From the NCBI RefSeq assembly GCF_000412185.1, contig NZ_ASJA01000017.1, positions 1 through 64,000 of the forward strand: a DNA stretch of 64,000 bases, read 5' to 3'. Made by a program: the position numbers and the translations under genes. The notes beneath the pieces were generated by a model, which was given only the letters and a program-made list of their open reading frames with translations, did no database searches and was not told where the DNA came from. Origin of the DNA: Euryhalocaulis caribicus (GTDB lineage: Bacteria; Pseudomonadota; Alphaproteobacteria; Caulobacterales; Maricaulaceae). This document shows, piece after piece, positions 4,822 through 45,619 of this stretch. The first letter of the stretch is position 1, and each line of letters begins with the position of its first letter.

Positions 4822-4831
4822 GGAGACCGCC

Positions 4832-5226: not shown

Positions 5227-5254
5227 TTGCTTTTTCACCCTTGGCGCCTATATT
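5227..5254 (+). promoter_or_regulatory. Candidate nadA promoter
   Basis: TTGCTT at 5227-5232 and TATATT at 5249-5254 are separated by 16 bases, giving a predicted transcription start near 5261. The start would fall inside the first inverted repeat, the expected geometry for repression. The match is by eye. Confidence 0.45.
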
Positions 5255-5274
5255 TTGCTCAGATTGAGAAAAAG
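5252..5274. promoter_or_regulatory. Operator 1 candidate, NadQ type
   Basis: Inverted repeat ATTTTGCTCA - GAT - TGAGAAAAAG, with 8 of 10 arm positions complementary. It overlaps the candidate -10 box and start point of nadA and shares the core CTCA-nAT-TGAG with the second repeat 64 bases downstream. Confidence 0.6.
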
Positions 5275-5315
5275 GGGCGGCTGGATGACAGCCAGACCCC
5301 TGAAAATGCGACCGG

Positions 5316-5338
5316 CTAATACTCACATTGAGCATTAG
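5316..5338. promoter_or_regulatory. Operator 2 candidate, NadQ type
   Basis: Inverted repeat CTAATACTCA - CAT - TGAGCATTAG, with 9 of 10 arm positions complementary. Its centre (5327) is 64 bases from that of operator 1 (5263), about six helical turns, so both sites face the same side of the DNA. It lies in the untranslated leader just ahead of the nadA ribosome site. Confidence 0.65.
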
Positions 5339-5357
5339 AGACGCAAGGAGGAACGCC

Positions 5358-6473: not shown

Positions 6474-6496
6474 TCTTCAAACAGGCTGATCCAAGA

Positions 6497-8017
6497 ATGG
6501 CCATTCACCGCCAGCGCCTGCCCGATGACGCCGTCCTGATCATCGGGGCGGGGCTGGCGGGCCTGTATCTGGCGCTGAATCTGAAACCCCGAAAAGCGGT
6601 CGTGCTGGCCGCCAAGCCGGTGTCCGAAGGCGCGGCCAGCGCTTGGGCGCAGGGCGGCGTGGCCGCGGCGCTGGCGGCCGGAGACTCGCCGCAGGCCCAT
6701 GCCGCCGACACGGTGCGCGTGGGAGCGGGACTGGTGGATCCGGCCATCGCGCAAATGATTGCGGAGGACGGGCCGGGCCTGGTGCGCAACCTTGCCTCGC
6801 TGGGCGTGCCGTTCGACCGGGACGCGGCGGGCGAATTTGTGCTGAGCCGGGAGGCCGCCCATTCGGCGGCGCGCGTAGCCCGGGTCTCCGGCGATCTGGC
6901 CGGGAAATCCATCATGGAGGTGCTGGTCGCCAGGGCGAAAGCCGCCGACTGGATCGAGCTGGCCGAGGGCAAGGCTCTGGACCTGTTAACGGATGCGCAG
7001 GGCGGCGTGGCTGGCGTGCTGGCCGCCACGGAAGACGGGCTGACGGAATTCACCGCCGGCGAGGTGGTGATCGCCTCGGGCGGGGTCGGCGGGCTTTATG
7101 CGGTGACGACCAATCCCCCCTCCTCCCGCGGCGACGGGCTGGCCATGGCGGCGCGCGCCGGAGCGGTGATCGGGGAAGCCGAGTTTGTGCAATTCCACCC
7201 CACGGCGATGGATATCGGCCGCGACCCGGCGCCGCTGGCGACCGAAGCCTTGCGCGGCGACGGCGCATTGCTGGTGGATGCGGACGGGGCGCGGCTGGTC
7301 GACCACGCCGAGGGCGAACTGGCCCCGCGCGATATTGTCGCCCGCGCCGTACATCGCGCCAAGGCCGCCGGCCGCCAGCCCTATCTGGACGCGCGCCACG
7401 CGATTGGCGAGGCGTTTCCCGACCGTTTCCCGACCGTCTTTTCCGCCTGCATGTCCGCCGGGATCGACCCCCGCCGGGATCTGATCCCCGTCGCGCCCGC
7501 CGCGCATTACCACATGGGCGGGGTGCGGGTAGACGCGCAGGGCGCGGCCAGCCTGCCCGGCCTGTCTGTCTGCGGCGAGGCGGCCTGCACGGGCGCGCAT
7601 GGCGGCAACCGGCTGGCCTCCAATTCCCTGTTGGAGGCGATCGTGTTCGCCCGCCGGATCGCGGAGCGGCTGAAAGACAGCGATGCGGTCAGCCGGACCG
7701 CGCAATCGGCGGAGGCCCCGCCCCGCCTGCCGCGCGCCGATCTGGCGCAATTGCGTGAAGCCATGGCGCGGCATGCAGGCGTGGAGCGGACCGCGAGCGG
7801 TCTTGCCGGACTTCTTGATGAGATGAACGCCATGGAGGCGCGGACCGGCGGCGCAAACCCCTTGATCGCCGCGCGCCTGATCGCCGCCAGCGCCCTGATA
7901 CGCGAAGAGAGCCGCGGCGCGCACGCCCGCGCCGACCATCCCGAGACACACGCCGAGGCGCGCCGCAGCGCCATGACGCTGGCCGAGGCGCGCAACGCCG
8001 CCGCCCGCGCCGCCTGA
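6497..8017 (+). CDS. nadB: L-aspartate oxidase
   Basis: The 506-residue flavoprotein oxidises L-aspartate to iminoaspartate, the substrate of NadA. Visible features are the FAD dinucleotide fold VLIIGAGLAGLYLALNL at the N-terminus, SAWAQGGVAAAL, the succinate-dehydrogenase-like active-site segment VQFHPTAMDI, and HYHMGGVRVD followed by GEAACTGAHGGNRLASNSLLEAIVFA near the C-terminus. Length is slightly below the usual 530-540. It sits between nadA and nadC in the same direction and is almost certainly co-transcribed with them. Confidence 0.96.
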   Translation: MAIHRQRLPDDAVLIIGAGLAGLYLALNLKPRKAVVLAAKPVSEGAASAWAQGGVAAALAAGDSPQAHAADTVRVGAGLVDPAIAQMIAEDGPGLVRNLASLGVPFDRDAAGEFVLSREAAHSAARVARVSGDLAGKSIMEVLVARAKAADWIELAEGKALDLLTDAQGGVAGVLAATEDGLTEFTAGEVVIASGGVGGLYAVTTNPPSSRGDGLAMAARAGAVIGEAEFVQFHPTAMDIGRDPAPLATEALRGDGALLVDADGARLVDHAEGELAPRDIVARAVHRAKAAGRQPYLDARHAIGEAFPDRFPTVFSACMSAGIDPRRDLIPVAPAAHYHMGGVRVDAQGAASLPGLSVCGEAACTGAHGGNRLASNSLLEAIVFARRIAERLKDSDAVSRTAQSAEAPPRLPRADLAQLREAMARHAGVERTASGLAGLLDEMNAMEARTGGANPLIAARLIAASALIREESRGAHARADHPETHAEARRSAMTLAEARNAAARAA

Positions 8018-8029: not shown

Positions 8030-8872
8030 ATGAGCGCCGTGCCCTATCCCGTTCTGGAGCCGATTATCCGCCGCGCGCTGGAGGAAGACCTGTCCGGCGG
8101 CGATGTGACCAGCCTGAGCTGTATCGACGCGGACGCCACGGCGCGCGCCGTGATGCGGGCGCGAGAGGCCGGCGTCGCCGCCGGTCTGGACGCCGCCCTG
8201 CTGTCTTTTCGCCTGGTGGAGCCCTCGCTGCGGGTCGAGGCGTTGAAGCGGGACGGCGACCCGCTGGAAGGCGGCGATGACGTTCTGGCCGTCAGCGGCA
8301 ATGCCCGCACCATCCTGATGGCCGAACGCACGGCGCTGAACTTCGCCACCCATTTAAGCGGCGTCGCCAGCCTGACCGCGCGCTATGTCGAGGCCGTCGC
8401 CGGAACGGGCGCTAAGATCAGCCCCACGCGCAAGACGCTTCCCGGTCTGCGGGCGCTGCAGAAGGCGGCCGTGGAGGCGGGCGGGGGATCGCCCCACCGG
8501 TTTGCGCTGGGCGATGCGGTGATGATCAAGGACAACCATATCGCGGCGTCCGGCGGCATCGCCGAGGCGATTGAACGCGCCCGCAAGGCCGGCGGCCATA
8601 TGCGCCGGATCAGCGTGGAGGTCGATACGCTGGACCAGCTGGACATTGCGCTGGACGCCGGGCCGGACGTGATCCTGCTGGACAATTTCTCAAACAAGGC
8701 GCTGGCCGAGGCCGTGACGCGCAATCAGGGCCGCGCCGTGCTGGAAGCCTCCGGCGGGGTGAATCTGAGCACCGTGCGCGGCATCGCGGAGAGGGGCGTG
8801 GACGTGATCAGCGTCGGCGCGCTGACCCATTCCGCCCCGGCGCTGGATCTGGGTCTGGATTTCGAGGCCTAG
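8030..8872 (+). CDS. nadC: Nicotinate-nucleotide pyrophosphorylase (quinolinate phosphoribosyltransferase)
   Basis: NadC converts quinolinate and PRPP to nicotinate mononucleotide with release of CO2 and PPi, completing the de novo branch. The 280-residue product contains RTALNFATHLSGVA, the ISPTRKTLPGLRALQKAAV substrate-binding stretch, VMIKDNHI and the C-terminal barrel segments VILLDNFSN and VLEASGGVNL. An AGGAG ribosome site precedes the ATG, 12 bases after nadB. A strong hairpin follows the stop, closing the operon. Confidence 0.96.
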   Translation: MSAVPYPVLEPIIRRALEEDLSGGDVTSLSCIDADATARAVMRAREAGVAAGLDAALLSFRLVEPSLRVEALKRDGDPLEGGDDVLAVSGNARTILMAERTALNFATHLSGVASLTARYVEAVAGTGAKISPTRKTLPGLRALQKAAVEAGGGSPHRFALGDAVMIKDNHIAASGGIAEAIERARKAGGHMRRISVEVDTLDQLDIALDAGPDVILLDNFSNKALAEAVTRNQGRAVLEASGGVNLSTVRGIAERGVDVISVGALTHSAPALDLGLDFEA

Positions 8873-8882
8873 CCGCAAACGA

Positions 8883-8911
8883 AAACGGCCGGGCGTGACG
8901 CCCGGCCGTTT
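8883..8911. terminator. Bidirectional terminator after nadC
   Basis: A perfect 13-base stem AAACGGCCGGGCG is separated by a TGA loop from its complement. A at the left foot and T at the right foot allow it to serve nadC and also the convergent wall-hydrolase gene. Confidence 0.85.
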
Positions 8912-8944
8912 CCATCGATAAGTCCGCGGTGCGGAACTGTCAGA

Positions 8945-9733
8945 TTACGCGTCCGTGTCCGGCAGGCGGCCAGCGGCACCCGGGAAACGGTAGAATTTGT
9001 GGCTGCCGATCACGCCGGTCTGCACCAGGCTGGGCGCCCAGTACGGGTTGATCGCGACCGTGTGATAGTGCGTCGCGCCATTGGTGGCCGGCTTCGCCAG
9101 ACCCAGCATGGCGTGCGCGGCGACCTGATTGGCGTTGCGCCATGCCACGCCGCGCGGCTTGCGCGCCACCGAACCGTCACAGGTAAAGGTGAACTGGCAG
9201 CCCGTATTGCGGTAGGAGCCCTGATAGACGACGCCGCAGATCGTGTTCGGGTAGAGCGGGTGACGCACCCGGTTCATGACCACTTCGGCGACCGCCATCT
9301 GACCCGGGCGGGTTTCGGACCGCGCCTCGAAATAGACGGCGTCGGCCAGGCATTTGCGTTCTTTCGCCTGACGCTCGGCCTGATCGAAATGCGCCTGCGC
9401 GAAGGTCTGGTAGGCGCCGATCACGTCACGGTCGCGGGCCAGAGAATCCAGCGACTGGTTGGACGTGTAGGCGCGCGCCATGCGCCAGATCTTTTCACTG
9501 CGATCACTGCTGGTGAGGCGGAACCCGTTTTCGCGCGCGGCGTTGGCGTCGATAGAGAACATGTCGACGAAGGTTTCGGCGCGCTGGTTCCATTCCGCGT
9601 TGTTTTCCTGCGTTTGCAGCCGGGATTGCGCCATCGGCAGCGCGAAGGCCATCAGGCCTAGCGCCGCGGCGGCGGACGCAAACTTAGCGGCGGCGCGCGC
9701 TTTGCGCGCACGTTTGGAAACTTCAAGCTTCAT
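8945..9733 (-). CDS. Cell wall hydrolase, SleB family
   Basis: A 262-residue exported protein has a basic N-terminus, a hydrophobic segment (about residues 17-35) serving as signal or anchor, a helical middle and a C-terminal Hydrolase_2/SleB domain (about residues 125-262). The domain starts CLADAVYFEARSE, where Glu136 is the probable catalytic residue, and continues AVAEVVMNRV and YRNTGCQFTFTCDG. The family cleaves peptidoglycan glycan strands as a lytic transglycosylase; outside spore-formers it serves in wall remodelling. Convergent with nadC across a shared terminator. The ribosome site is poor, so the start is less certain than the gene. Confidence 0.85.
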   Translation of the reverse strand: MKLEVSKRARKARAAAKFASAAAALGLMAFALPMAQSRLQTQENNAEWNQRAETFVDMFSIDANAARENGFRLTSSDRSEKIWRMARAYTSNQSLDSLARDRDVIGAYQTFAQAHFDQAERQAKERKCLADAVYFEARSETRPGQMAVAEVVMNRVRHPLYPNTICGVVYQGSYRNTGCQFTFTCDGSVARKPRGVAWRNANQVAAHAMLGLAKPATNGATHYHTVAINPYWAPSLVQTGVIGSHKFYRFPGAAGRLPDTDA

Positions 9734-20785: not shown

Positions 20786-22324
20786 TTACGGCGCCTGATA
20801 CGGATTTCCCCATCCCGAAGGGCGGGCTTTTTCATACGCCTCCAGAAAGGGCTGCATATGTTCTTCATAGCGCCGCCACCCCCCGATGGACTTGGTGGAA
20901 ATCGGCTGGCGCACCTGGGTTTTGGAGGCGGTCTTCACCGCGCGGTCGGTCTTGTAGAAATTATTCTGCACGTCCTCGACCGGCAGTCCGGCGTGTTCGA
21001 GGAGCTTCGGCGCCCAGACATCCGGCTCGGCGGCCAGTGATTCGTAAGGGATGAACAGCAGCTTTTCCGGAAACAGCTCCAGGAAATAACGCTGAAGATC
21101 CTCCACCTGCACCATCCGCTCGGCAATGCGCTCCCATGCCCAGGTCCAGTCATGGCGGACCAGGAAGCGCGTCTTCAGCACCGAAAGCGCCACATCGCGC
21201 GGGTCGCGGCGGATCCAGACGAAACTGGCGTTTGGCAGCGCCGCCATCGCCGCGCCGGCGTGGTAGGGCAGGTCCAGCGCCTTGTCGACGACGCGGCCCT
21301 CGCTCTCCGGACCGAACTCTTCATCGACAAAGCGCAGATAGATCTGGCCCAGCTTTCCGAACGGATCGCCGCCGGGGCCGCCGAAATTGCGCTGGAAATG
21401 ATTGAGGCGCTGCGGGTCAAGCCGGCCCAGCGGGAACGCCGACACGCGCATTGCGTCCAGCTCTCCGCCGTCCTTTACCTGGCTGTGCGTGGTCAGCAGC
21501 TGCTCCAGCAGCGTGGTGCCCGAGCGCGGCATGCCGAAAATGAAGATGGGGCGCGAGGATTCCGCGCCCATTCCGCGATCCTCGAGTTTTTTGTAGAGCG
21601 CGGCGCTGAAGGTCCGTTTGATGCGCTCCACATAGGCGCGCTCGCCCGCGACATCATAGGGCCGCTCGGCCGCCATGATCGCCTGACCTTCCGCGTAATT
21701 CTCATACGCCTTGTCGTATTCCCCGATGCGGTCATAGGCGTCGCCCAGCGCGTAATGCAGATTGGACAATTCCTTGGTCTTGGAGGCGCCGGCCTTTATC
21801 AGGCGGTCGCGAAGCGCCTCCATCTGGCCATACGCCTTGTCGCCCAGTTCGAACTTTTCCAGCTTGACCAGCTGGTTCCAGCTTTCGACGTCGTTCGGGT
21901 CCAGTTTCACGACCCGCCAGAACATGTCCTTCGCGCAGTCCATGTCGCCCAGGAAGAAGGCGAAATTGCCGGTGCGGAAGGCGGCCGGGGCGGATGTGGG
22001 GTGTTTTTTCTGCAGCGCCTGCGCGATCTCGAACGCCTCTTCGGTCCGTCCGGCGGAATTCAGCATGCGGCTGAGCTTCATGCGGCGGTCATCATCGCGC
22101 GGCTTGGCGGCGGCGAATTTCCGTTGCGCGCGGACGGCGGAAAAGCGGTCCCCCGCGTCGGCGGCAAGATCGGCCACCAGCCCCCAGCGGTCGCCGATAT
22201 CCTCGTCCCGCGACACGATTGCGCGAACAATATCGATCACCTGCATGGCGCGGCCCGCCTTGGTGGCGTCAATCGCCGCCTGGATGGCGTCCTCGATGGG
22301 GGGCGTTTGAGCTTGGTCGGCCAA
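20786..22324 (-). CDS. TPR-sulfotransferase paralogue 1
   Basis: The 512-residue product has helical tetratricopeptide-like repeats over about residues 10-250 and a C-terminal PAPS-dependent sulfotransferase domain (Sulfotransfer_3 type). The 5'-phosphosulfate loop MPRSGTTL is at about 265-272, a possible catalytic Glu288 is in DGGELDAM, and the 3'-phosphate motif WIRRDPRDVALS is at about 370-381. A conserved ending, VRQPISTKSIGGWRRYEEHMQPFLEAY, is shared with its neighbours. No signal peptide is visible, so it is probably cytosolic. The TTG start at 22324, after a GGACGA ribosome site 13 bases past the previous stop, gives the same size as its paralogues. The acceptor is unknown. Confidence 0.85.
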   Translation of the reverse strand: MADQAQTPPIEDAIQAAIDATKAGRAMQVIDIVRAIVSRDEDIGDRWGLVADLAADAGDRFSAVRAQRKFAAAKPRDDDRRMKLSRMLNSAGRTEEAFEIAQALQKKHPTSAPAAFRTGNFAFFLGDMDCAKDMFWRVVKLDPNDVESWNQLVKLEKFELGDKAYGQMEALRDRLIKAGASKTKELSNLHYALGDAYDRIGEYDKAYENYAEGQAIMAAERPYDVAGERAYVERIKRTFSAALYKKLEDRGMGAESSRPIFIFGMPRSGTTLLEQLLTTHSQVKDGGELDAMRVSAFPLGRLDPQRLNHFQRNFGGPGGDPFGKLGQIYLRFVDEEFGPESEGRVVDKALDLPYHAGAAMAALPNASFVWIRRDPRDVALSVLKTRFLVRHDWTWAWERIAERMVQVEDLQRYFLELFPEKLLFIPYESLAAEPDVWAPKLLEHAGLPVEDVQNNFYKTDRAVKTASKTQVRQPISTKSIGGWRRYEEHMQPFLEAYEKARPSGWGNPYQAP

Positions 22325-22337
22325 GAGCGTCGTCCGT

Positions 22338-23825
22338 CTAGTTGTCGCTGGAATAGGTCTGGTAGGCGTCGATAAAGGGTTGGAGGTGTTTTTCATAGGC
22401 CTTCCAGCGCCCGATCGACTTGGTCGAGATGGGCTGACGGGCCGATTCCAGCGACGCCGTGGCAATGGCCTTGTCGCTCTTGTGGAAGCGGTCCTGCACC
22501 GGTTCAGGCTGCAATCCGCAATGGGCGAGTATCTTCGGGATCCAGACATCGGGCTCGCGCGCCAGATCCTCATATTCCACTTTCAGGATGGCGTCGGGGA
22601 ACAGGCCCGCGAAATGCTCCCGCAGTTTTTCGAAATGCGCCATGCGATGAGCGATATCCTGCAGACGCCAGCTCCAGTTTTGCTGGTTCAGCAGCCGGAT
22701 CCGGAAATTCGACCACGCCACGTCGCACGGGTCACGGCGAATCCAGACGACCGGCGCCTGCGGCAGGCCGGCCCGGATCACGCCCGCCATGAAGGGCAGG
22801 TTGATCGCCTTGTCCACGATCTTCCCGTCCGGGCCGAACTGTTCGCCGATCAGTTGCTGATAGACATCGCCGACCACCGACCAGGGACCGTTCTCCCGTC
22901 CCGCGAAACGCTTCTCGAACTCCTCCATCCGCTCCGGCTGGAAGCGGCCGAGAGGGTAGGAGGCAATGCGCATCGCCGACAGCTCTCCGCCATCCGCCAC
23001 GGCGCTGTGCGCGGACAGAAGCCGCTGCAGCAGCGTGGTGCCGGAGCGCGCCATGCCCAGAACGAACAGCGGCCGGTCGCCCGGCGCGCCGGCGCCGGGG
23101 CGCGACTGGTAAAAATCGGCGTCGAAAGTGTCGATAATGGTGTCGACATAATCGTCGAAAGCGTCGGCGTGATACGGGTCATGCGCCGCCATGATCTTCG
23201 ATCCGGCGTCGAAATGAGCAAACGCGTCGTCCCGCTCCTCCAGCTTGTGGAAGGCGTCGCCCAGCGCAAATTCCAGCGCCGCGCGCTGTGTCGGCGCGGC
23301 GTTCTCCAGCTTCGGGCGAACCGCCTGCATCGCGGCGATATCTTCCCGCTGCCGCCCCGACCGGTCGAGATTCTGAAGGTGCGACCAGGCGTCGGGGTTC
23401 ATCGGGTCGGCCTCGACCACTTCCCGGAACAGCTCGGCCGCGCGCTCGATCATGCCGAGATGCGAGGCCAGGAACGCAACGCGGAATTTCGCCCCCGGCA
23501 CGTTCGGGGCCCGGGCCAGCACCGCCTCGGCGATCTTCATGCCCTCATCGGTGCGGCCATAACCGCCCAGCATCCGGGCCAGCGCAAAACGATGATTGAG
23601 GTCGCCCGGCGCATGCGCGATCAGTTTTCGCTGCGCGATGATTGCAGTGCGCATATCGCCGATATCGGCGGCCATTTTCGCCACCTCCCCCCAGCGCGCG
23701 CCCAGATCGGGCGACTGGGCGGTCAAACGCCGCACAGCGCCCAGCGTGACGTCCCGGCGATTGCCGGCCAGGGCCTGCCGCGCGCGTTGCAACAATGTCC
23801 CGGGGTCCGACGCGGCGTTGTTCAA
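22338..23825 (-). CDS. TPR-sulfotransferase paralogue 2
   Basis: The 495-residue paralogue has TPR-like helices (about 5-235) followed by the sulfotransferase domain. The phosphosulfate loop reads GMARSGTTL (about 257-265), with alanine in place of the usual proline; GGEL places a candidate base at Glu281; the 3'-phosphate motif is WIRRDPCDVAWS. The ending SARQPISTKSIGRWKAYEKHLQPFIDAY matches the group. Its ATG lies in an ATGA overlap with paralogue 3 at 23822-23825, so the two are translationally coupled. The acceptor is not predictable. Confidence 0.87.
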   Translation of the reverse strand: MNNAASDPGTLLQRARQALAGNRRDVTLGAVRRLTAQSPDLGARWGEVAKMAADIGDMRTAIIAQRKLIAHAPGDLNHRFALARMLGGYGRTDEGMKIAEAVLARAPNVPGAKFRVAFLASHLGMIERAAELFREVVEADPMNPDAWSHLQNLDRSGRQREDIAAMQAVRPKLENAAPTQRAALEFALGDAFHKLEERDDAFAHFDAGSKIMAAHDPYHADAFDDYVDTIIDTFDADFYQSRPGAGAPGDRPLFVLGMARSGTTLLQRLLSAHSAVADGGELSAMRIASYPLGRFQPERMEEFEKRFAGRENGPWSVVGDVYQQLIGEQFGPDGKIVDKAINLPFMAGVIRAGLPQAPVVWIRRDPCDVAWSNFRIRLLNQQNWSWRLQDIAHRMAHFEKLREHFAGLFPDAILKVEYEDLAREPDVWIPKILAHCGLQPEPVQDRFHKSDKAIATASLESARQPISTKSIGRWKAYEKHLQPFIDAYQTYSSDN

Positions 23826-25324
23826 CGGTCAGTCCCGTAATAGGCGTCCAGAAACGGCTGGAGATGCGCCTCATAGCGCTTCCAGCGGTCCACGGCCCGT
23901 GTGTGGATCGGTTCGCGCACCTGCGTCATCGCCGCGGTCGAGACGCCTTTCCGGGACTTGTGGAAGTCCAGCACGCCGGGCTCCATCTCCAGCCCGCAAT
24001 GCGTAACGATGCGCCGCGCCCCTTCTTCCGGCGCGGCGGTCAGCGATTCATAGGGCGCGGTGAGGACGCGGTCCGGCAACAGGGCGGCAAAATGCTCATG
24101 CAATTGGTCAACGGCCCTGATCCGGGCGGCCAGACGCTGCTGGCCGTAGCTCCAGCCATGCTGGCCCGCGAACATGACGCGCAGCGACGACCAGGCGATG
24201 GCGCCGGGATCGCGCTGCATCCAGATTATCGGCGCCTCGCTCAGCATCTTGGCAATGAGCCCGACCTTGAACGTGTTGTTAAGCGCCTTGTCCACGACGT
24301 GGCCGCGCAGGCCGAACTGTTCCGACATCAGCTCCAGATATCGCCCGCCCATCTTGCCCAGCGGGTCGTCGGACTTGGAAAATTCCAGAAAGGCCTGGAT
24401 ACGGTCGCCGCGGCACGTCCCCAGCGCGTGGGTCGCCACCTGCATGAAGGGCAGCTCCCCGCCGCCGGCCGATCCGCTATGCGCGCCCAGAATCTGCTCC
24501 ACCAGCGTGGTGCCCGACCGCGGCATGCCGACAACGAAGATGCTGCGCTTGCCCGGCGCCCCCGCGCCGCGCGTGTTCCGGAAAAAGGAGTCGTCGAACG
24601 TGCGGCGAAGATCATCGACATAGGTCTGCAGATCGTCGGCGTTGAAAGGCGTTTCCTTCGCCATCATCTCCGCGGCCTGGCTGACATAGGCGAAGCCTTC
24701 ATCGACCTCGTCCAGATCGTCCAGCGCCTTGCCGATACCAAAGCCGATCGCCGCTTTTTCCCGGCCATCGGGAATCTGGGCAGAGTCCCAGGCCTTCTTC
24801 ATGGCGTCGATGTCGGGGTCGCCGGCTTCGAAACGCTTCAGCCAGGCGATCAGGTGCCAGGCCGACCCATAGGTGGGGCGCATCGCCACGGCTTTGTGGA
24901 GATAATTGAGCGCCCGGTCGGTCTCCCCGGCGCGCGCGGCGCAACTGGCCGCAAAAAAGGCAAGGCGCGGCTCGTGCGGAACCTGCTGGAACAGGGCCTC
25001 GGCAAGGGGCAGCGCCTCCCGCGCCTTGTCTGCATCCAGCAGGATGCGCGCCAGCAACAGCGTGCGGTCCGGCTCGTCCCGGTTGAGGGCCAGATAGCGG
25101 CGCGCGGCGTTTTCGGCCGCGAAATAATCGTAGGAATCCTTGGAAAGCTCCGCCACGTCCTTCCACTTGTCGCCCAGCTGCGCGCGGCTGCGCAAAAGCC
25201 CGCGCATCCGCGCCGCGGTAATATTGGGCGCCCCCTTCTTCAGGGCGGCCCGGGCCTCGGTCAGCGCGGCGTCGATACGCGCCTCGACCTCGCCGGGCGC
25301 TAAATTCTGTCCTGTGGCGCTCAC
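23822..25324 (-). CDS. TPR-sulfotransferase paralogue 3
   Basis: This protein has 500 residues from the GTG at 25324, which follows an AGGGGA ribosome site. TPR-like helices span about 5-245. The phosphosulfate loop is GMPRSGTTL (about 266-274) and the candidate catalytic Glu290 is in GGGEL. It is the most divergent copy: the 3'-phosphate motif is WMQRDPGAIAWS, lacking the second Arg-Asp, and the ending is VREPIHTRAVDRWKRYEAHLQPFLDAYYG. PAPS affinity or substrate may therefore differ from the others. It is the second gene of the four-gene run. Confidence 0.86.
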   Translation of the reverse strand: MSATGQNLAPGEVEARIDAALTEARAALKKGAPNITAARMRGLLRSRAQLGDKWKDVAELSKDSYDYFAAENAARRYLALNRDEPDRTLLLARILLDADKAREALPLAEALFQQVPHEPRLAFFAASCAARAGETDRALNYLHKAVAMRPTYGSAWHLIAWLKRFEAGDPDIDAMKKAWDSAQIPDGREKAAIGFGIGKALDDLDEVDEGFAYVSQAAEMMAKETPFNADDLQTYVDDLRRTFDDSFFRNTRGAGAPGKRSIFVVGMPRSGTTLVEQILGAHSGSAGGGELPFMQVATHALGTCRGDRIQAFLEFSKSDDPLGKMGGRYLELMSEQFGLRGHVVDKALNNTFKVGLIAKMLSEAPIIWMQRDPGAIAWSSLRVMFAGQHGWSYGQQRLAARIRAVDQLHEHFAALLPDRVLTAPYESLTAAPEEGARRIVTHCGLEMEPGVLDFHKSRKGVSTAAMTQVREPIHTRAVDRWKRYEAHLQPFLDAYYGTDR

Positions 25325-25428
25325 GTTTTCAGTTCCCCTCGCCCCTGAACGGTGTGCTGCGTGCGTTTTGGCGCGGCGATACGTTTTTGACAATCATTGC
25401 AGCGGCCAACAACCGCCCGCCCGCGTCT

Positions 25429-26961
25429 TCATGAATGATACGGCTCGCCCCATTCCTCGGGCCAGATGCGCTCGAAAATATCCGTGAAAGGCTGCAGGAA
25501 GCCGCCCCAGCGCCGCCATTGCCCGATATTGCTGGTCGTTATCGGCTGCCGGACCTGCATGAGCGAGGCCGTATTGACCACTTGCGGCCCTTTGTAGAAA
25601 TCGGTCTGCACAGGTTCAGGGGGCAGGCCGCAGTGATCGAGCAGACGCGGCGCCGCCGTGTCAGGATCGGAAACCAGCGCCTCGTATTGCAGGTCAAGAA
25701 TGCGCTCGGGAAACAGCGCCATGAAATGCCGCTTCAGGGCCTCGGCGTGCACGATCCTGTGAGCGATCCGCTCCCAGCTCCAGGTCCAGTCGGCGCGGCG
25801 CGGGAATGGCGTCTTGTATATCGACAGCGCCGTATCGCGGGGATCGCGGTTGAGCCAGACAAAGGACGCTTCGGGCAGACCCGCCAGCGCGGGCCCGGCC
25901 AGCAGCGGTATCTCCAGAGACTTGTCCACGACGCGGCCCTGCGCGCCATAAATTTCCGAGACAAATTGCAGATAGCGGCCGCCCAGCGTGTTGAAAGCAT
26001 TGTCGCCATAGGCGCGGGCGAGCCGCTTGAAATCCTCCGGCGCGAACTGCCCCAGCGGGTAGCAGGCCAGGCGCAGCGCTTCCAGCTCTCCGCCGCCGGC
26101 CACGCCGCTGTGCCGGTTCAGCATGCGCTCCACCAGCGTGGAGCCGGAGCGGGGCAGCGACACGATGAAAATCGGGCGGTTTGACTGCTGCCGCTCGCCG
26201 GCCGTGCTGACGCGTTTGTAGAAATCGCCGTCAAAGATCGCTTTCGTGCGCTCTATGAAGTCGCCCTCGCCCTCCACCGAATGGGGCCGTATCGCCTCCA
26301 TCGGCTCCTGGGCGCGATCAAAATGGGCGGCGGCGCGGTCCAGCGCCCCGGTCTTTTCGTAGAGATCGCCGAGCGCGAATTGCAGCGCGGAGGCCTGCTC
26401 CGTGCGCCCGGCGTCAAACCACTGGCTGCTGAGCGTCTCCATCTCCGCCGCCGCCTTGTCCGGCGACTCAAACCCGTCCAGCTTGACCAGCTGCCGCCAG
26501 CTTTCGATGTCCTGCGGGTTCAGTTTCAGAGTCCGCTGATAGGCGTCGCGGGCGCCGTCCATATCGCCGCTATAGAGCAGCATCACGGCGTGCTGGGCGT
26601 TCAGGCGCGGCGATTGAGGGTCCCGCGCCAGCAGGCGGGCCGTGATATCCAGCGCCTCCTCCATCCGGGCGGCGCGCGCCAGGTAATTGGCCAGATTGGC
26701 CTGCGGCGCCGGATCGTCCGGGCGGGCCGCCGCGTAGCGTTTCTGCGCCTCCACCGCGCCGACCGCATCGCCCAGATCGTTCGCCAGAAGGGCGGCTTTT
26801 CCCCAGAGGTCGCCGATATTCTCGCCCCGGGCCAAAAGAATCCGCGACAGCTCGAACGCCACGTCATAGCGGTGGTCCGCCTGCGCCGCGCGGGCGGCTT
26901 CAAGAATGGTCTCGGGCGTGGGCGCGGTGCGTCCGTCCACCGGACCGGAAGGTGAAGTCAT
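25429..26961 (-). CDS. TPR-sulfotransferase paralogue 4
   Basis: The 510-residue paralogue has clear TPR pairs at about 20-215, including ARAARMEEALDITARLLARDPQSPRL, and a sulfotransferase domain with phosphosulfate loop SLPRSGSTL (about 268-276, Ser for the second Thr), candidate Glu292 in GGGEL and 3'-phosphate motif WLNRDPRDTALS. The tail VRQPITTSNIGQWRRWGGFLQPFTDIF departs slightly from the KSIG consensus. It is the first gene of the minus-strand run and lies 104 bases ahead of paralogue 3; its start is back to back with hemF, leaving 120 bases for two promoters. Confidence 0.87.
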   Translation of the reverse strand: MTSPSGPVDGRTAPTPETILEAARAAQADHRYDVAFELSRILLARGENIGDLWGKAALLANDLGDAVGAVEAQKRYAAARPDDPAPQANLANYLARAARMEEALDITARLLARDPQSPRLNAQHAVMLLYSGDMDGARDAYQRTLKLNPQDIESWRQLVKLDGFESPDKAAAEMETLSSQWFDAGRTEQASALQFALGDLYEKTGALDRAAAHFDRAQEPMEAIRPHSVEGEGDFIERTKAIFDGDFYKRVSTAGERQQSNRPIFIVSLPRSGSTLVERMLNRHSGVAGGGELEALRLACYPLGQFAPEDFKRLARAYGDNAFNTLGGRYLQFVSEIYGAQGRVVDKSLEIPLLAGPALAGLPEASFVWLNRDPRDTALSIYKTPFPRRADWTWSWERIAHRIVHAEALKRHFMALFPERILDLQYEALVSDPDTAAPRLLDHCGLPPEPVQTDFYKGPQVVNTASLMQVRQPITTSNIGQWRRWGGFLQPFTDIFERIWPEEWGEPYHS

Positions 26962-27081
26962 GAATGCGCTCGATCATTTCGCGCCGGATCGGGGCCGGGC
27001 CGGGAAGGCTGCCGGCCGACTTTGACAAGTGGAATGACCCGGTGCAACTCGCTGGTCCCGTAGAGACGCGATTGGACGCCC

Positions 27082-27978
27082 ATGACCAGATCCAGCCCCC
27101 TGCCCGACGACATCGAGGAAAAGAAGCGCAAGGCCTCCGAGTGGTTTGCCGCGCTGCGCGACCGCATCTGCGCCGCGCTGGAGACGCTGGAACAGGACGC
27201 CGACCCCGATCTCTATGACGGCGAAGCCGCCCGCTTCGTCCGCTCCCCCTGGACGCGCGGAGACGGATCGAAGGACGAAGGCGGGGGCACGGCCTCTCTC
27301 CTGCACGGGCGGCTGTTCGAGAAGGCGGGCGTGCATATTTCCGAAGTGAAGGGCGAATTCTCGCCGGAGTTCGCCAAACAGATCGACGGCGCCGAGGACG
27401 ATCCCCGCTTCTGGGCCAGCGGAATTTCCCTGATCGTGCACCCGCGCAATCCGCGCGTGCCGGCCGTTCACATGAATACCCGCATGATCGTGACCACGCG
27501 CTCCTGGTTCGGGGGCGGCATGGACCTGACGCCGGTGCTGTCATACCAGCGCGACCGGGATTTCGAGGACGCGCGGGACTTCCATCAAGCCTGCCGGGAC
27601 GCCTGCGAACCGCACGGCAAGGATTATTACAACCGCTATTCGAAATGGTGCGACGAGTATTTCCATCTGAAACACCGCGACGAACCGCGCGGCGTCGGCG
27701 GCATTTTTTACGACCGGCACAATAGCGGGAACTGGGAGGACGATTTCGCCTTCACCCGCGATGTCGGCGAAAAATTCAATGATATCTATCCGGCGCTGGT
27801 CCGCCGCCGCATGGACGAGATCTGGTCGGACGCCGAGCGCGAGGAACAGCTGGTCCGGCGCGGCCGCTATGTGGAATTCAACCTGCTCTATGACCGGGGC
27901 ACGATTTTCGGCCTGAAGACCGGCGGCAATATCGAGTCGATCCTGTCCTCCATGCCGCCTGTCGTGAAATGGCCGTGA
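27082..27978 (+). CDS. hemF: Oxygen-dependent coproporphyrinogen III oxidase
   Basis: HemF converts coproporphyrinogen III to protoporphyrinogen IX with O2. The 298-residue product carries the invariant segments [53 protein letters not shown], the [21 protein letters not shown] motif and the C-terminal [31 protein letters not shown]. It interrupts the otherwise minus-strand sulfotransferase series and is unrelated in function; its presence indicates aerobic heme synthesis. Confidence 0.97.
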
Positions 27979-28029
27979 AATAAGGACGCGCCCTTGCAGG
28001 GCTCCGGTCCCGGCGCTACCTGACCCGTC

Positions 28030-28845
28030 ATGACAGAACCCGCCATGACCGACGCCATCCGGCCGCCCCGCAATTTCCCCGCCGTCAACTGGATCGGGTT
28101 CTGGACGCTCTACAAGAAGGAAGTCCTGCGCTTCCTGAAAGTGACGTTCCAGACGGTGCTGGCGCCGGTTGTCACCACGCTTCTCTATATCGTGGTCTTC
28201 ACCATTGCCCTGGCCGGGTCGCGCACGGCGGTGGCGGGCATTCCCTATCCGCAATTCCTGGCGCCGGGCCTGATCATGATGGCGATCCTGTCCAACGCCT
28301 TCCAGAATTCCGCCTCATCGCTGCTGATCTCCAAGGTTCAGGGCAATGACGTCGATTTCCTGATGCCGCCGCTGGCCGCGGGCGAGCTGGCGGCCGCCTT
28401 CATTCTGGGCGCGGCGACGCGCGGCATTGTCGTGGCGGCGGTGACCGCGGCCACGATTGCGCCCTTCATCAATATCGTTCCCGACCACTGGTGGGCCGTT
28501 CTGTATTTCGGAGTCGGCGCGTCGCTGCTGCTGGGGATGCTGGGCGTGATCGGCGGCATATGGGCGGAGAAGTTCGACCATATGGCGATGGTGCAGAACT
28601 TCATCATGCTGCCGCTGGTATTCCTGTCGGGCAGTTTCTATTCGATCTCCCGCCTGCCGGAAGCTTTCCAGACCGCCAATCATTTCAACCCGGTCTTCTA
28701 CGTGATCGACGGGTTCCGATATGGCTTCACCGGTCATGCCGACGGATCGGTCATGGTCGGCGTCATCATCGTGGGCGTGGCCAATATCGCCTGTCTGGCG
28801 ATCACGCTGGGCCTGCTGAAGTCCGGCTGGCGGCTGAAAAGCTAG
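28030..28845 (+). CDS. ABC-2 type transporter permease
   Basis: This 271-residue membrane protein has about six helices and the ABC-2 pattern: a cytoplasmic start (WIGFWTLYKKEVLRFLKVTFQTVLAPVVTTLLY), QFLAPGLIMMAILSNAFQNSASSLL, and PLVFLSGSFYSISRLPEAFQTANHFNPVFYVIDGFRYG, typical of drug, capsule or lipid exporters such as YadH. No ATPase gene is adjacent, so its partner must be elsewhere. Its stop overlaps that of the convergent sulfotransferase paralogue 5 by 4 bases. Export of a sulfated lipid or glycan is possible but unsupported by sequence. Confidence 0.88.
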   Translation: MTEPAMTDAIRPPRNFPAVNWIGFWTLYKKEVLRFLKVTFQTVLAPVVTTLLYIVVFTIALAGSRTAVAGIPYPQFLAPGLIMMAILSNAFQNSASSLLISKVQGNDVDFLMPPLAAGELAAAFILGAATRGIVVAAVTAATIAPFINIVPDHWWAVLYFGVGASLLLGMLGVIGGIWAEKFDHMAMVQNFIMLPLVFLSGSFYSISRLPEAFQTANHFNPVFYVIDGFRYGFTGHADGSVMVGVIIVGVANIACLAITLGLLKSGWRLKS

Positions 28846-30368
28846 AGCGCTTCCCGGCCGCCGAACTTGCGGTAGGCCTCGATAAATTCGCCCATGTGCT
28901 TCTCGTAGCGCCGCCAGCTGCCGATCGACTTGGTCGAGATCGGCTCCCGCACGGACTCCACCGACGCCGTCGCCACCGGGCCGTCCTGCTGGTGGAAGGT
29001 TTCCTCCACAGCTTCGTGCGGCAGGCCGCAATGCTCCAGAATCCTGTCTGTCCACTCGCCCGGATTGGCGGCGAGGTCTTCGTATCTGACGTTCAGGATC
29101 CGCTCCGGCGCGATGGCGCTGAAATGATCCTCGAACCGCTCCACCTCCACGATGCGGGAGGCGATATGCTCCATGTTCCAGCTCCAGTCCTGCTGGAACA
29201 GGCGGCGCTGGAAGATCGACCAGGCGACATCGCGCGGATCGCGTCGCGTCCAGATGACCGGCGCGTTCTCGTACAGGGCCAGTATGAAACCCATGCGGAA
29301 CGGAACGAAGATCGCCTTGTCCACGACCTTGCCTTCCGAACCGAAGCGTTCGGTCAGCAGGCGCAGGTGGAAATCGCCCAGCGCGCGCCATGAAGAATGA
29401 TCGCCCGAAGGGGTGGGTTGCTCGGTCGGGGCGACCTGATCCGGGGCGCGGCCCTCGATCGGGTAGCCGGCCACGCGCAGCGCGCCCAGCTCGCCCCCGC
29501 CCGCAACCCCGCTATGGGCCGAGAGAAGGCGCTCCAGCAGCGTCGTGCCCGAGCGCGCGGTCCCCGCAACGAAAATCGGGCGCGTGCTGTCGTGACGCCC
29601 CTGCTCCGCCCCTTTCGCCATGGCTTCGGCGGAATGCGCCTGCCGCGACGCGTCCGCGAACTGGCGCACCCGGGCGGGATCGTAATTGCCGGTGGAGGCG
29701 AACAGACGGTTGGCCTTCGAGAAGTGCTCGAACGATGAATCCGTGTCTCCGGCGCGGTCATTCATCACGCCGAGCGCGAATTCAAAAAGCGCCGTCTGCT
29801 TGGGATCGGAATCGCCGGCGGCGCGGTAGACGTCCATGAAGCGGTCGAACCGGGCGCCTTCATCCTTCGACAGGCCCTTGAGCACGGCCAGCTGATACCA
29901 GCTTTCCGCCGAATTCGGCTCCAGCTCCAGGATTTCCTCGTGCTTGGCGCGCGCCTCGTCGAACCGGCCCAGATGGGCCAGCGCCACGGCGGCGCGCAGC
30001 TTCAGCTTGGCGTAGCCCGGATTCTGCTTTTCAAGCCGGGTCAGGACTTCCAGGGCCTTCTCGTCGCGGCCGAATTCGATCAGGTAATGGGAGAGCTGAT
30101 AGACCCGGTTGAGATCGCGCGGATCCTCTTCCTGACTTTTCATCGCGCACTGAACAGCGGCGCCGGAATCGCGAAGGTCCCCGGCCAGATGCGCCAGCGG
30201 CCCCCACGCCCCCTTGCGGATGGCTTCGGGCTGCTCCAGCGCCCGGCGGATGATCTGAACCGCCTGCGCCGGTTCGCCGTTCTTCACGGCGGCCTGCGCC
30301 CCCTTGACGGCGGGCACCTTGCCGCCGCGCTCCTGATTGCCGTTCGCGCCTGCCTGCTTGTTGCTCAT
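28842..30368 (-). CDS. TPR-sulfotransferase paralogue 5
   Basis: The 508-residue paralogue is separated from the other four by hemF and the permease gene. Residues 1-25 are a polar tail rich in Gly, Asn and Gln; TPR-like helices follow at about 28-245; the sulfotransferase domain has loop GTARSGTTL (about 269-277), candidate Glu293 in GGGEL and WTRRDPRDVAWS. The ending VREPISTKSIGSWRRYEKHMGEFIEAY agrees with paralogues 1 and 2. A GGGGGAAG ribosome site precedes the ATG. It has its own transcription unit, opposite argD across a 202-base gap. Confidence 0.87.
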   Translation of the reverse strand: MSNKQAGANGNQERGGKVPAVKGAQAAVKNGEPAQAVQIIRRALEQPEAIRKGAWGPLAHLAGDLRDSGAAVQCAMKSQEEDPRDLNRVYQLSHYLIEFGRDEKALEVLTRLEKQNPGYAKLKLRAAVALAHLGRFDEARAKHEEILELEPNSAESWYQLAVLKGLSKDEGARFDRFMDVYRAAGDSDPKQTALFEFALGVMNDRAGDTDSSFEHFSKANRLFASTGNYDPARVRQFADASRQAHSAEAMAKGAEQGRHDSTRPIFVAGTARSGTTLLERLLSAHSGVAGGGELGALRVAGYPIEGRAPDQVAPTEQPTPSGDHSSWRALGDFHLRLLTERFGSEGKVVDKAIFVPFRMGFILALYENAPVIWTRRDPRDVAWSIFQRRLFQQDWSWNMEHIASRIVEVERFEDHFSAIAPERILNVRYEDLAANPGEWTDRILEHCGLPHEAVEETFHQQDGPVATASVESVREPISTKSIGSWRRYEKHMGEFIEAYRKFGGREAL

Positions 30369-41945: not shown

Positions 41946-42776
41946 TCAAGCGGGCGCAATCGGCGACCGCGATCCATAAGCGATGAAATGCGGATTGGCG
42001 AAATCGGAATCCAGCGCCTGCTCGCGCTTGTCATAGCTGAGCGGCTGACCGTCCACCGTGGTCACGCATCCGCCCGCGCTGACCAGCACGGCGTGACCGG
42101 CCGCGGTGTCCCATTCCATCGTGCGGCCCAGCCGCGGATAGACATCGGCCGCGCCTTCCGCCACCAGGCAGAATTTCAGGGACGATCCGGCGGAGACCGT
42201 GTCCGTCACGCCCAGCGCCTTTAGAAAATCGTCCGTCTCCGGGGTGCGGTGGGACCGGCTGGCCACCGCGGTCGGCGGGCTGGCCGGCTGGCGCACGGAC
42301 ATGGGTTTGAGGTCATATTCGCCGGGATTGCGGCAATCGACTTCACCGGTCCTGGCGTGATCGCCACACCCGACATAGAGCTTCTTCGTAGCCGGCGCAT
42401 AGACCACGCCGATCACCGGGGTACGGTCCCGCACCAGGCCGATATTCACCGTAAAATCGCCGCCGCCGCGAATGAATTCCTTGGTGCCGTCCAGCGGATC
42501 GACCAGGAAGAAATCCCCGTCCGTATCGGGAATGCGTCCCGCCTCGACAGACTCCTCGGCAACCACCGGACAGCCGGGCGCGAGCTTGGCCAGCTCTTTC
42601 AGGATATAGGCCTCGGCCCGCTGGTCGGCGATGGTGACCGGCGAGTCGTCGTCCTTGCGCTCGACTTCGAGGGAATTGCCCTCATAGACGTCCAGGATGA
42701 TCCGCCCGGCCTCAAGCGCGATGCGCTCCAGGCCCTTGATCAGGTCGGCGTCACAGATCGAATTTGTGGCCGACAT
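41946..42776 (-). CDS. cysQ: 3'(2'),5'-bisphosphate nucleotidase
   Basis: CysQ hydrolyses PAP, the by-product of PAPS use, to AMP and so prevents inhibition of sulfotransferases. The 276-residue inositol-monophosphatase-like protein shows [12 protein letters not shown], the metal-binding VVAEES and [10 protein letters not shown], and the C-terminal [15 protein letters not shown]. Its start overlaps the end of cysNC by 26 bases, so PAPS synthesis and PAP disposal are coupled in one unit. Confidence 0.95.
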
Positions 42777-44676
42777 AGCCCAGAAGCTCCTCTACGCATT
42801 CCTCGACGCTGCGCTCTGCGGTGCGCAGGGTAAAATCGGCCTCGGCCGGCTCTTCATACGGCGCGGAAACGCCGGTGAAGTCCTTGATCTCGCCCGAACG
42901 CGCCTTCTTGTAGAGGCCCTTGGGATCGCGCTCCTCGCACACTTCCAGCGGGGTCGCGACATAGATCTCGTGGAAGCCCTCGCCCACCGAATCCCGCGCC
43001 CGCTGACGGTCGGAGCGATACGGGGAAATGAAGGATGAGAGCACGATCACGCCAGCGTCGGAGAACAGCGAGGCGACCTCGCCCACGCGGCGAATATTCT
43101 CCGCCCGGTCTTCCGGGGAGAAGCCCAGATTGGCGTTCAGCCCGTAGCGCACATTGTCGCCGTCCAGCACGTAGGTGGAGTAGCCGCGTTCGAACAGCGC
43201 TTTTTCCAGCGCCACGGCGATGGTGGATTTGCCCGCGCCCGAAAGCCCGGTGAACCACAGCACCCCGCCCTTGTGATGGTTGCGGCGTTCGCGCGCCGCG
43301 CGGTCCACATTGGTGGTGACCTTGTAGATATTGGTGGACTTCACGGTGCTCAGCGAGCGCTGATCCGGATAGCCCTCCATGGAGATGATGCCGCCGCCGG
43401 CGATGTCGTAGCCATCGACGATCACAAAGCGCCCGGTGTTCGGATTCTCGGTGAACTCGTCCAGCGCGATCATGCGCTTGCAGCGGATGATCACCTCGCC
43501 AACCTGATTGCGCTCGACCTGTTCGGCTTCGCGGTTGGACAGGTCCCCGGTGTCGACGATGCGCTCAACCGACTCGATCTTGGCGTTCGCCTGCAGCGTG
43601 CCGATCTTGATCTTGTAGGCTTTCTTGACGCTCAGCGGCTCGCGGCCGAGCCAGAAGATGCGCGCCCGGAAGACGTCCGTCTCCACGGGAGGATTATCCA
43701 CCTGGCTCATGATCTGGCCGCGCTCGACGAAGATCTGCTCTTCCAGCGTGATGCCGACGCTCTCGCCCGCGGAGGCCGCGGTCGGGTTCTCGCGGCTGTC
43801 GGGCCAGGTCTCGATGCTCTTGATGCGTGAAGACTTGTTCAGCGGGGAGAACATCACCCGGTCGCCCACGCGCAACTTCCCGGACTCGATCCGTCCGGCG
43901 ATGATGCGGCGGTCGTCAAACTTGTAGACGTCCTGAACCGGCATGCGCAGCGCCTGGTGGGACAGCGGCTCGGGCATCTTGAAGCTGTCGAACGCCTCGA
44001 CCACCGTCGGACCCTTGTACCAGCCCATATTGGCTTTTTCGTCGCCATCGGTGCGCATGGCGATCATGTCGCCCTCGCGCGCGGAAACCGGCACGACGAA
44101 CGTCGCATCGACCCCGACGGAGTTCAGATACTGACGGTACTCGGCCTCGATCTCGTCGAACCGGGCCTGGCTGTAATCCACGCGGTCCATCTTGTTCACC
44201 GCGACCGCCACCTGGCGCACGCCCATCAGGGACAGCAGATAGCCGTGGCGGCGGGACTGCTCCTGCACGCCCTCGCCCGCGTCGATGACCAGCAGCGCCG
44301 CATCGGCCTGCGCCGCGCCGGTGACCATGTTCTTCAGAAACTCGGTATGGCCCGGCGCGTCGATGATCGTGTAGTCGCGCTTTTCGGTGTGGAACCAGAT
44401 CTGCGAGGTGTCGATCGTGATGCCCTGATCACGCTCGGCCTGCATGGCGTCCATCAGGAAGGCCCATTCGAAGGGCATGCCGCGCTTGCGGCACATCTCG
44501 GTGATCGCTTCCATCTTGCCGTCCGGCAGAGAGCCGGTGTCATGGAACAGGCGGCCGACCAGCGTCGATTTGCCGTGATCCACGTGACCCACGATCACGG
44601 TGCGCAGAAGCTCGCGGTTGCGGTCCGCCTCCGCCTGGATTTTAGCGTCTTTGGGCATGGGCATGTCTTTCGTCAT
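42751..44676 (-). CDS. cysNC: Bifunctional sulfate adenylyltransferase subunit 1 / APS kinase
   Basis: This 641-residue fusion has an N-terminal CysN GTPase (about 1-460: GHVDHGKST at 30-38, [12 protein letters not shown]) that drives APS formation with CysD, and a C-terminal APS kinase CysC (about 466-641: GLSGAGKST at 477-485, then [19 protein letters not shown]) that phosphorylates APS to PAPS. The fusion directs sulfate to PAPS, the donor for sulfotransferases. It lies 36 bases after cysD and upstream of cysQ; no sulfite reductase or PAPS reductase gene is present in the window. Confidence 0.97.
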
Positions 44677-44712: not shown

Positions 44713-45510
44713 CTAGAGGTAACCGCCTTCGCGGAGACGTTCGAAAGCGTCTTCGGTCTCGTGATCCATGGCGCGGCCGGAGCGTTCGGAAACCTTGGTC
44801 GTGCGCAGTTCCTGGATGATCTCCTCGACCGTCGAGGCGTCGGAATCGACCGGGTTGGTGATGTCCTGATCGCCCAGCGAGCGGTAACGCTTGCCGTTCT
44901 TGGAGAAATACAGGGAGATCAGCGGGATCTCCTCGCGCTTGGTGTATTCCCAGATATCCAGCTCCGTCCAGTGCAGCAGCGGATGGATGCGGATATGCGT
45001 GCCCTCGGGATAATCGGTCTTGTACTGGTCCCAGAATTCCGGCGGCTGATCGCGGAAATCCCAGTTGCCTTCCAGCCCGCGGGGCGAGAACACACGTTCC
45101 TTGGCGCGCATGGACTGCTCGTCCCGGCGGATGCCGGCGACCAGACCGTTGAAGCCATGCTTCTGGGTCGCCATGCGCAGGCCCGCCGTCTTGCGGGCCG
45201 CGGAGCGCGCGGCCGGGCCAAGGCCCTCGCCGTCAATGTCCTCGATCGGCGGACATTCCTCGCGAATGAAGTCCAGACCCCATTCCTCGGCGTAGCGGTC
45301 GCGGAATTCATACATTTCGGGAAATTTCTTGCCCGTATCGACATGCATCACCGGAAACGGGATGTGACCCAGAAACGCCTTCTTGGCCAGCCAGACCATG
45401 ACGTTCGAGTCTTTGCCCAGCGACCACAGCAGGGCCATCTTGTCGATGCGATTGAATGCTTCGCGGAAAATATAGACGCTTTGCGCCTCGAGCCTATCGA
45501 GCCGATCCAT
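44713..45510 (-). CDS. cysD: Sulfate adenylyltransferase subunit 2
   Basis: CysD is the catalytic adenylyltransferase half that forms APS from sulfate and ATP. From the ATG at 45510 (MDRLDRLEAQSVYIFREAF) it has 265 residues, shorter than the roughly 300 of E. coli. The PP-loop is SLGKDS (30-35), followed by FPVMHVDTGKKFPEMYEFRD, GIRRDEQSMRAKERVFSPR and WTELDIWEYTKREEIPLISLYF. It is the first gene of cysD-cysNC-cysQ; a long imperfect dyad lies in its 215-base upstream gap. Confidence 0.95.
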   Translation of the reverse strand: MDRLDRLEAQSVYIFREAFNRIDKMALLWSLGKDSNVMVWLAKKAFLGHIPFPVMHVDTGKKFPEMYEFRDRYAEEWGLDFIREECPPIEDIDGEGLGPAARSAARKTAGLRMATQKHGFNGLVAGIRRDEQSMRAKERVFSPRGLEGNWDFRDQPPEFWDQYKTDYPEGTHIRIHPLLHWTELDIWEYTKREEIPLISLYFSKNGKRYRSLGDQDITNPVDSDASTVEEIIQELRTTKVSERSGRAMDHETEDAFERLREGGYL

Positions 45511-45619
45511 GACTGGCCGTCCGTTCCCTTTAGATTTGGCGTACACGCGAGCCGAAACGGGCGAAATGCTGCGCATCCCGCCCACCGGCGCGCGAACCTA
45601 GCGATACGCCGTCATAGGG

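Follow-up and report, generated by a model that had tools for sequence, protein, structure and literature searches.

An array of TPR-sulfotransferases beside hemF in Euryhalocaulis caribicus and an apparently inactive homologue at the same site in relatives

According to the relevant sections of PMC9372746, few bacterial lineages are known for tyrosine sulfation, and the bacterial tyrosylprotein sulfotransferase (TPST) is described as an enzyme without a membrane anchor. The sections of PMC9372746 and PMC6637879 that deal with Xanthomonas present RaxST, encoded in the raxX-raxSTAB cluster, as a bacterial sulfotransferase that has been modelled on TPST2 and whose cytoplasmic action precedes the export of its substrate. 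The combination of tetratricopeptide repeats (TPR) with a sulfotransferase domain (PF13469) is already known in databases, where NCBI gives it the name "tetratricopeptide repeat-containing sulfotransferase family protein"; a limited literature search yielded no publication on what TPR-sulfotransferases do, nor on one linked to hemF. In this study, we analyzed a stretch of 64,000 nucleotides of Euryhalocaulis caribicus (assembly GCF_000412185.1, contig NZ_ASJA01000017.1, positions 1 to 64,000), referred to below as the window, in which five genes with this two-domain architecture (S1 to S5) are placed around hemF. They had been pointed out in an earlier note that was made from the letters of the DNA alone. 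What is new here is an intact array and an apparently dead copy at one recurrent site beside presumed heme and bc1 genes, together with a predicted TPST-like fold and a receptor pairing elsewhere.

Five paralogues with intact catalytic residues

S1 to S4 are arranged head to tail on the minus strand, and hemF and the gene of an ABC-2 membrane protein separate them from S5. We take hemF to be the gene of coproporphyrinogen III oxidase and petA that of the Rieske subunit of the complex that we likewise call bc1. The five genes were assigned from their open reading frames (ORFs) and Pfam matches, and the features are as follows.

20786..22324, minus strand: S1, TPR-sulfotransferase, TTG start, 512 residues
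22338..23825, minus strand: S2, TPR-sulfotransferase, TTG start overlapping the S3 stop (TTGA), 495 residues
23822..25324, minus strand: S3, TPR-sulfotransferase, GTG start preferred, 500 residues
25429..26961, minus strand: S4, TPR-sulfotransferase, divergent from hemF, 510 residues
28842..30368, minus strand: S5, TPR-sulfotransferase, apart from the S1-S4 run, 508 residues
20044..20664, minus strand: petA, one anchor of the recurrent site, assigned by synteny
27082..27978, plus strand: hemF, the other anchor, with matches in 118 of 137 genomes of the family
28030..28845, plus strand: ABC-2 membrane protein (PF01061) in the gap between hemF and S5
21461..21529, minus strand: S1, from the 5'-phosphosulfate-binding (5'-PSB) loop PRSGTTL to GGE (Arg267 to Glu288, 21 residues apart)
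21182..21211, minus strand: S1, 3'-phosphate motif RRDPRDVALS (Arg373, Ser381)
20876..20932, minus strand: S1, C-terminal motif TASKTQVRQPISTKSIGGW, aligned to the TPST stretch QV.KP......W

The description of five TPR-sulfotransferases of about 500 residues was borne out: the proteins have 495 to 512 residues, and in each of them TPR families of Pfam precede a Sulfotransfer_3 domain (PF13469; 98.9 to 117.3 bits against a gathering cut-off of 27, E values from 6.5e-28 to 1.6e-33). Among the NCBIfam models listed for the five proteins, none was at its cut-off. All ten pairs match one another in BLASTP with E values of about 1e-72 or better and identities of 32 to 45%. At the DNA level only patches of 64 to 90% identity are left, several of them over the loop that is predicted to bind 3'-phosphoadenosine 5'-phosphosulfate (PAPS), and the five genes are therefore regarded as old duplicates under protein constraint. 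The tandem run of four genes with an overlap, as the earlier note had it, was found, and the overlapping letters are TTGA rather than ATGA. For S3, the GTG start is favored; an alternative TTG lies further upstream at 25393.

The PAPS loop of the form P/A-RSG-T/S-T, the GGEL segment and the RDP-type motifs are present in all five proteins, as had been claimed, whereas only the core of the conserved tail (R.PI.T.....W) is common to all of them and its exact string differs in S3 (VREPIHTRAVDRW) and S4 (VRQPITTSNIGQW). Sulfotransferases have, by the rule given in the section of PMC6637879 on their motifs, an Arg or Lys in the 5'-PSB, a Ser in the 3'-phosphate-binding site (3'-PB) and a His or Glu base between them; S1 has Arg267, Ser381 and Glu288 at these positions, with equivalents in all the others. 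The residues R, T/S, T, H, E, K, R, D and S are retained in all five window proteins. In the alignment with human TPST2, the Arg of RSGTT and the Glu are 21 residues apart, which is also the spacing in S1 to S5; DK, RD......S and QV.P......W likewise have counterparts in both. The Glu of GGEL aligns with the residue that we take to be the TPST base.

The AlphaFold2 model of S1, which was built from a 40-row alignment (pLDDT 94.1, pTM 0.92) and is the one model on which the fold match of the five window proteins rests, takes the shape of a TPR half with 14 helices before the first strand, followed by an alpha/beta sulfotransferase half. The structures ranked 1 to 7 by VIA-align are all TPST chains (Z-score = 20.9 to 21.8, RMSD = 2.6 to 3.1 Å, 246 to 252 residues), with TPST1 at the top (5wri/5wrj; Z-score = 21.8, 2.6 Å, 247 residues), TPST2 (3ap1) at 21.3 and a tick TPST (8w5z) at 21.2. 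Polyketide sulfotransferase domains come next (4gox, Z-score = 18.0; 4gbm, 17.6), and a sequence search with the catalytic domain gave the same two families, with TPST 8w5z first (1.8e-12) and CurM 4gbm next (4.1e-11). Among solved structures, the modelled catalytic domain of S1 comes nearest to the tyrosylprotein sulfotransferases of animals. The earlier note had held that a missing PAPS pocket would speak against its proposal; the PAPS residues are present in all five proteins, and S1 has the predicted TPST fold.

The petA-hemF site in relatives and the expansion of the subfamily

The petA-hemF interval is a recurrent site for TPR-sulfotransferase homologues. Twenty hemF regions were chosen from 38 genomes with hemF, deliberately including the six that carry a sulfotransferase there (G004, G010, G013, G014, G015 and G021, from five genera; G and L numbers are our labels for genomes and loci). 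petA and cytb adjoin hemF in 19 of the 20 regions, and in G024 hemF stands alone. Each of the six relatives has a single homologue that is divergent from hemF, as is S4 in the window. Where no sulfotransferase is found, the petA-hemF gap is 174 bp in the same-genus genome and 247 to 1673 bp in the other 12 measured, some of which hold an unrelated ORF. A profile of the six gave an unbiased count, in which the homologue is present in 24 of 137 genomes of the family and 5 of its 19 genera (loci L255-L278, besides L161, L166, L168, L169, L170 and L172). Both genes occur in 23 genomes, on the same contig and divergent in every one, and G366 has no hemF match; the spacing between the matched stretches is 40 to 233 bp in 22 genomes and 1835 bp in G263.

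The hemF-linked proteins differ from the window proteins in their catalytic residues. In the six, forms such as AAGAS replace RSGTT, Arg replaces the Glu of GGE, and both the Lys and the C-terminal stretch are missing. All 24 have Arg for the catalytic Glu and Pro, Ser or Ala for the Lys, whereas both residues are present in the five window proteins; the 5'-PSB Arg is lost in 23, and the remaining protein (G212) retains RSG with AD in place of TT. Nevertheless, dN/dS is 0.07 to 0.24 in 13 of the 14 closest pairs listed (the distant pair G013/G188 gave 0.71, but its dS is doubtful), mean identity is 58% in the dead domain against 50% in the TPR half, and the model of one hemF-linked protein (pLDDT 88.2) keeps the TPST-like fold (5wrj, Z-score = 18.2, RMSD = 3.1 Å, 221 residues). 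No other enzyme family ranks above TPST in the VIA lists of this model and of S1, in which absence of a family excludes nothing. Because of the purifying selection, the conservation of the dead domain and the retained fold, the gene is regarded as a maintained pseudo-sulfotransferase and not as one in decay; judged from its residues, it is apparently conserved, catalytically dead and under selection.

The genome of E. caribicus contains seven members of the window subfamily, i.e., the five of the window and two on another contig (C4a, with RK for RD, and C4b, which lacks the Lys and the 3'-PB Ser), in addition to three more distant TPR-sulfotransferase homologues. A subfamily match at 1e-90 was found in 33 of 398 genomes of the order, own genome counted. 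Since that search scored the three best candidates per genome, copy numbers were taken from a full scoring of all candidates in 20 of the 32 other matching genomes, and these have one or two copies at a score of at least 300 bits (a line of our own choice) against seven here. Neighbouring loci were examined for the same 20 carriers. On the C4 contig, three tandem proteins of about 227 residues, alike by eye, lie between C4b and an RTX-repeat protein (L180:7313-9447); two were scanned with Pfam, and 8764-9447 matched Sulfotransfer_2 while 7313-7996 had no match.

S3 and the two C4 copies had no resolved placement in a 67-row quick tree and a 42-row tree. In a 49-row tree, which omits L024, L028, L032, L037 and L181 (none with a receptor, see below) and the duplicates L234 and L235, the seven copies form one clade (94/87, just below the starred level of the tool, 95/80), so that expansion of the subfamily in the host lineage is likely. 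Within the clade, the supports are 100/99 for S1 with S4, 99/78 for S2 with S5, 100/96 for these four together, and 93/84 for S3 with C4b. Because the partner of S3 in the tree lies on another contig, the array is not a purely local series, and with 32 to 45% identity it is no recent one. The local duplication series of the earlier note thus survives as an expansion within one lineage and fails as a recent or purely local event; in the tree that it had proposed, the copies of this genome do group together, and an exclusive clade of the five window copies is neither shown nor rejected (p-AU, from the approximately unbiased test, of 0.124 in the 42-row and 0.092 in the 49-row tree). Tandem sulfotransferases are not unique to the window, as L036, L088 and contig 42 of G032 hold three each and L097 holds six; the latter, from a metagenome-assembled genome of Gammaproteobacteria, are TPR-sulfotransferase-like ORFs within 14.4 kb, two on the plus and four on the minus strand.

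PAPS supply, acceptor and origin

A module for PAPS synthesis is encoded in the window.

44713..45585, minus strand: cysD-like, sulfate adenylyltransferase subunit (PF01507)
42751..44676, minus strand: cysNC, GTPase and adenosine 5'-phosphosulfate (APS) kinase (PF01583), the only APS-kinase match of the genome
41946..42776, minus strand: cysQ-like phosphatase (PF00459, Inositol_P), possibly hydrolysing 3'-phosphoadenosine 5'-phosphate

cysNC is 12 kb from the array, and cysQ-cysNC-cysD stand in the middle of a nucleotide-sugar locus (36.7 to 51.8 kb) with phosphomannomutase, a GlmS-like protein, a nucleotidyltransferase, epimerases, GlcNAc 2-epimerase, ManC, RmlD, RmlC and a GT2 protein. Assimilatory cysG-, sulfite reductase- and cysH-like genes are located on another contig, where six proteins were scanned and none was recognized as an ATP sulfurylase; a search for a Sat-type enzyme was likewise negative. 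CysNC matches at 1e-30 in 37 other relatives, several of which cover the GTPase part only, have at most 50% identity (42% in the same-genus genome), which suggests that CysNC was replaced or is an old paralogue.

In other genomes, the family is paired with a receptor. Within a 24-row clade close to the window copies, the direct neighbour of the sulfotransferase is an Oar-like TonB-dependent receptor in 13 rows; 12 of these pairs are tail to tail at about 70 to 230 bp, and in the remaining one (L035) the receptor is upstream in the same direction. Four of the five receptor queries were drawn from these loci (L025, two from L026, and L035), so detection at those three loci is not independent; Pfam confirmed both receptors of L026 and gave CarboxypepD_reg only for L035. 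The contexts of the paired loci are varied (L025, L026, L027, L035, L227-L230, L237, L238, L241 and L242), and since the upstream genes differ between loci, enzyme and receptor seem to move together as a pair. One neighbour common to all relatives was sought and not found. The pairing hints at a tie of the TPR-sulfotransferase family to exported proteins. It cannot explain the window array, because the own genome has no match to the receptor of L229 at 1e-40, and neither the window nor positions 62 to 80 kb of its contig gave a receptor match. The same search over the 20 hemF regions found no receptor, and co-occurrence at the genome level fails among 41 genomes, in which the receptor is present in six (G010, G019, G026, G035, G038 and G039) and not in the subfamily carriers G028 and G032. 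On the C4 contig, a TonB-dependent-receptor-like protein and a putative lipoprotein, both labelled by eye, lie downstream of C4a on the same strand (L179:1924-7499; 4698-7499 gave no Pfam match).

We propose that the five proteins are active cytosolic PAPS-dependent sulfotransferases that were amplified beside hemF and whose most likely acceptor is a protein hydroxyl, and we regard the explanation as a whole as evenly balanced between right and wrong. PAPS would be made by CysD and CysNC, and the C-terminal domain would bind it with three elements, namely the RSGTT loop, RD......S and the R.P....W stretch of the C-terminus. The general base would be the Glu of GGEL, and the acceptor, most likely a protein hydroxyl and probably tyrosine, would be held by the TPR superhelix of the N-terminal half and sulfated before export. 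The array would go back to a single ancestral gene at the petA-hemF site that was amplified in this lineage, with copies dispersed in the genome, while in sister genera the gene would have stayed single and turned catalytically dead under continued selection.

Several points weigh against this proposal, and those on the acceptor come from the PAPS module and the fold. The position of the module among nucleotide-sugar genes favors a glycan acceptor, the module probably has to serve cysteine synthesis as well as sulfation, since a second ATP sulfurylase was not found, and the resemblance to TPST may in part stem from the set of sulfotransferases whose structures have been solved. The five may instead be glycan sulfotransferases for a capsule, exopolysaccharide or lipopolysaccharide made from the nucleotide-sugar locus 6 to 21 kb to the right of S5, which we consider a real possibility at somewhat less than even chances: several paralogues would suit several linkages, one each, and NodH, a GlcNAc sulfotransferase, is also recognized by PF13469 according to the passage of PMC11625862 that names it. 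However, no glycosyltransferase was recognized beside the array itself, the neighbours in relatives (20 proteins scanned, and the receptor search) are housekeeping proteins or the TonB-dependent receptor with no glycan locus, and among the solved sulfotransferases listed, TPST has the fold closest to that of S1. A protein hydroxyl is slightly favored over a glycan. That the five act on small molecules, i.e., secondary metabolites or lipids, is quite improbable; the polyketide sulfotransferase domains, second-best by structure, and CurM, second by sequence, point that way, but a TPR superhelix would be unusual on such an enzyme and no polyketide gene was recognized among the scanned window proteins.

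As to ancestry, the best tree keeps the hemF-linked rows apart from the window copies, a clade of both with the five window rows is disfavored (p-AU 0.015 in the 42-row and 0.035 in the 49-row tree), and grouping S4 with the hemF-linked rows is rejected (p-AU 0.001, 42-row tree), which rules out simple orthology between S4 and the dead gene. In the 49-row tree, the dead rows group apart with full support (100/100) and a long stem, which would also suit an array that was acquired by horizontal transfer already expanded and that landed beside hemF independently of the dead homologues. The same-genus genome G001, with no match at 1e-60 and its gap of just 174 bp, and the patchy distribution of the subfamily across the order are in line with such a transfer. 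We nevertheless consider it unlikely, as no second genome with a comparable set turned up, the composition of the array is near that of its neighbours (GC content at third codon positions of 0.81 to 0.84 against 0.82 to 0.89), and two insertions would be needed in the same interval and with the same orientation; moreover, placing the seven own copies and the six hemF-linked rows in one clade costs 6.1 log units, which is too little for rejection (p-AU 0.243). Foreign composition was thus not seen, and a phage origin was discarded, S1 having no match in 50,697 phage records. The earlier remark that no phage or transposon is nearby agrees with this, and with the absence of such families among the Pfam-scanned proteins, which are part of all window proteins.

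Beyond the proposed amplification at the hemF site, these observations could belong to an alphaproteobacterial system in which TPR-TPST enzymes sulfate exported proteins, an Oar-type receptor is the partner elsewhere, and the dead copy beside hemF binds an acceptor that is thereby tied to heme and bc1 biogenesis; this wider scheme is speculative and rather improbable. The TPR-fused TPST-like family, its recurrent receptor partner and its conserved dead relative are concrete genes for studying bacterial tyrosine sulfation, and a site with an active array in one genome and a dead copy in others would make it possible to tell acceptor binding from sulfate transfer.

Comparison with known systems

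The TPR-sulfotransferases of NCBI have the same two-domain architecture as S1 to S5 and form a loose superfamily; S1 matches 36 plasmid records, and of the 25 that were listed, 10 bear this name, the identities in the list being 25 to 33%. The present subfamily differs by its amplification to seven copies in one genome. O-GlcNAc transferase and SPINDLY likewise have a TPR superhelix ahead of a transferase domain, but their catalytic domain and donor are unrelated to those of sulfotransferases, and the likeness to S1-S5 is an analogy of layout only, in which the TPR part matches.

RaxST, which was compared by description, is accompanied by genes for its peptide substrate and exporter, whereas neither was recognized at the window array. 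No peptidase-ABC exporter was seen beside the array, where the ABC-2 membrane protein is present and small ORFs were not systematically searched. No ATPase gene was noticed alongside the ABC-2 protein.

The closest likeness in structure is to animal TPST1 and TPST2 (3ap1, 5wri), which share with the window proteins the catalytic fold as predicted for S1 (Z-score = 21 to 22), the RSGTTL loop, the Glu at +21, RD......S and QV.P......W. No hydrophobic N-terminal stretch was seen by eye in the window proteins, whereas metazoan TPST is described as Golgi-anchored in the corresponding section of PMC9372746. Over the fold, the identity to TPST1 and TPST2 is 16 to 20%, and the window proteins differ from them by the added TPR superhelix.

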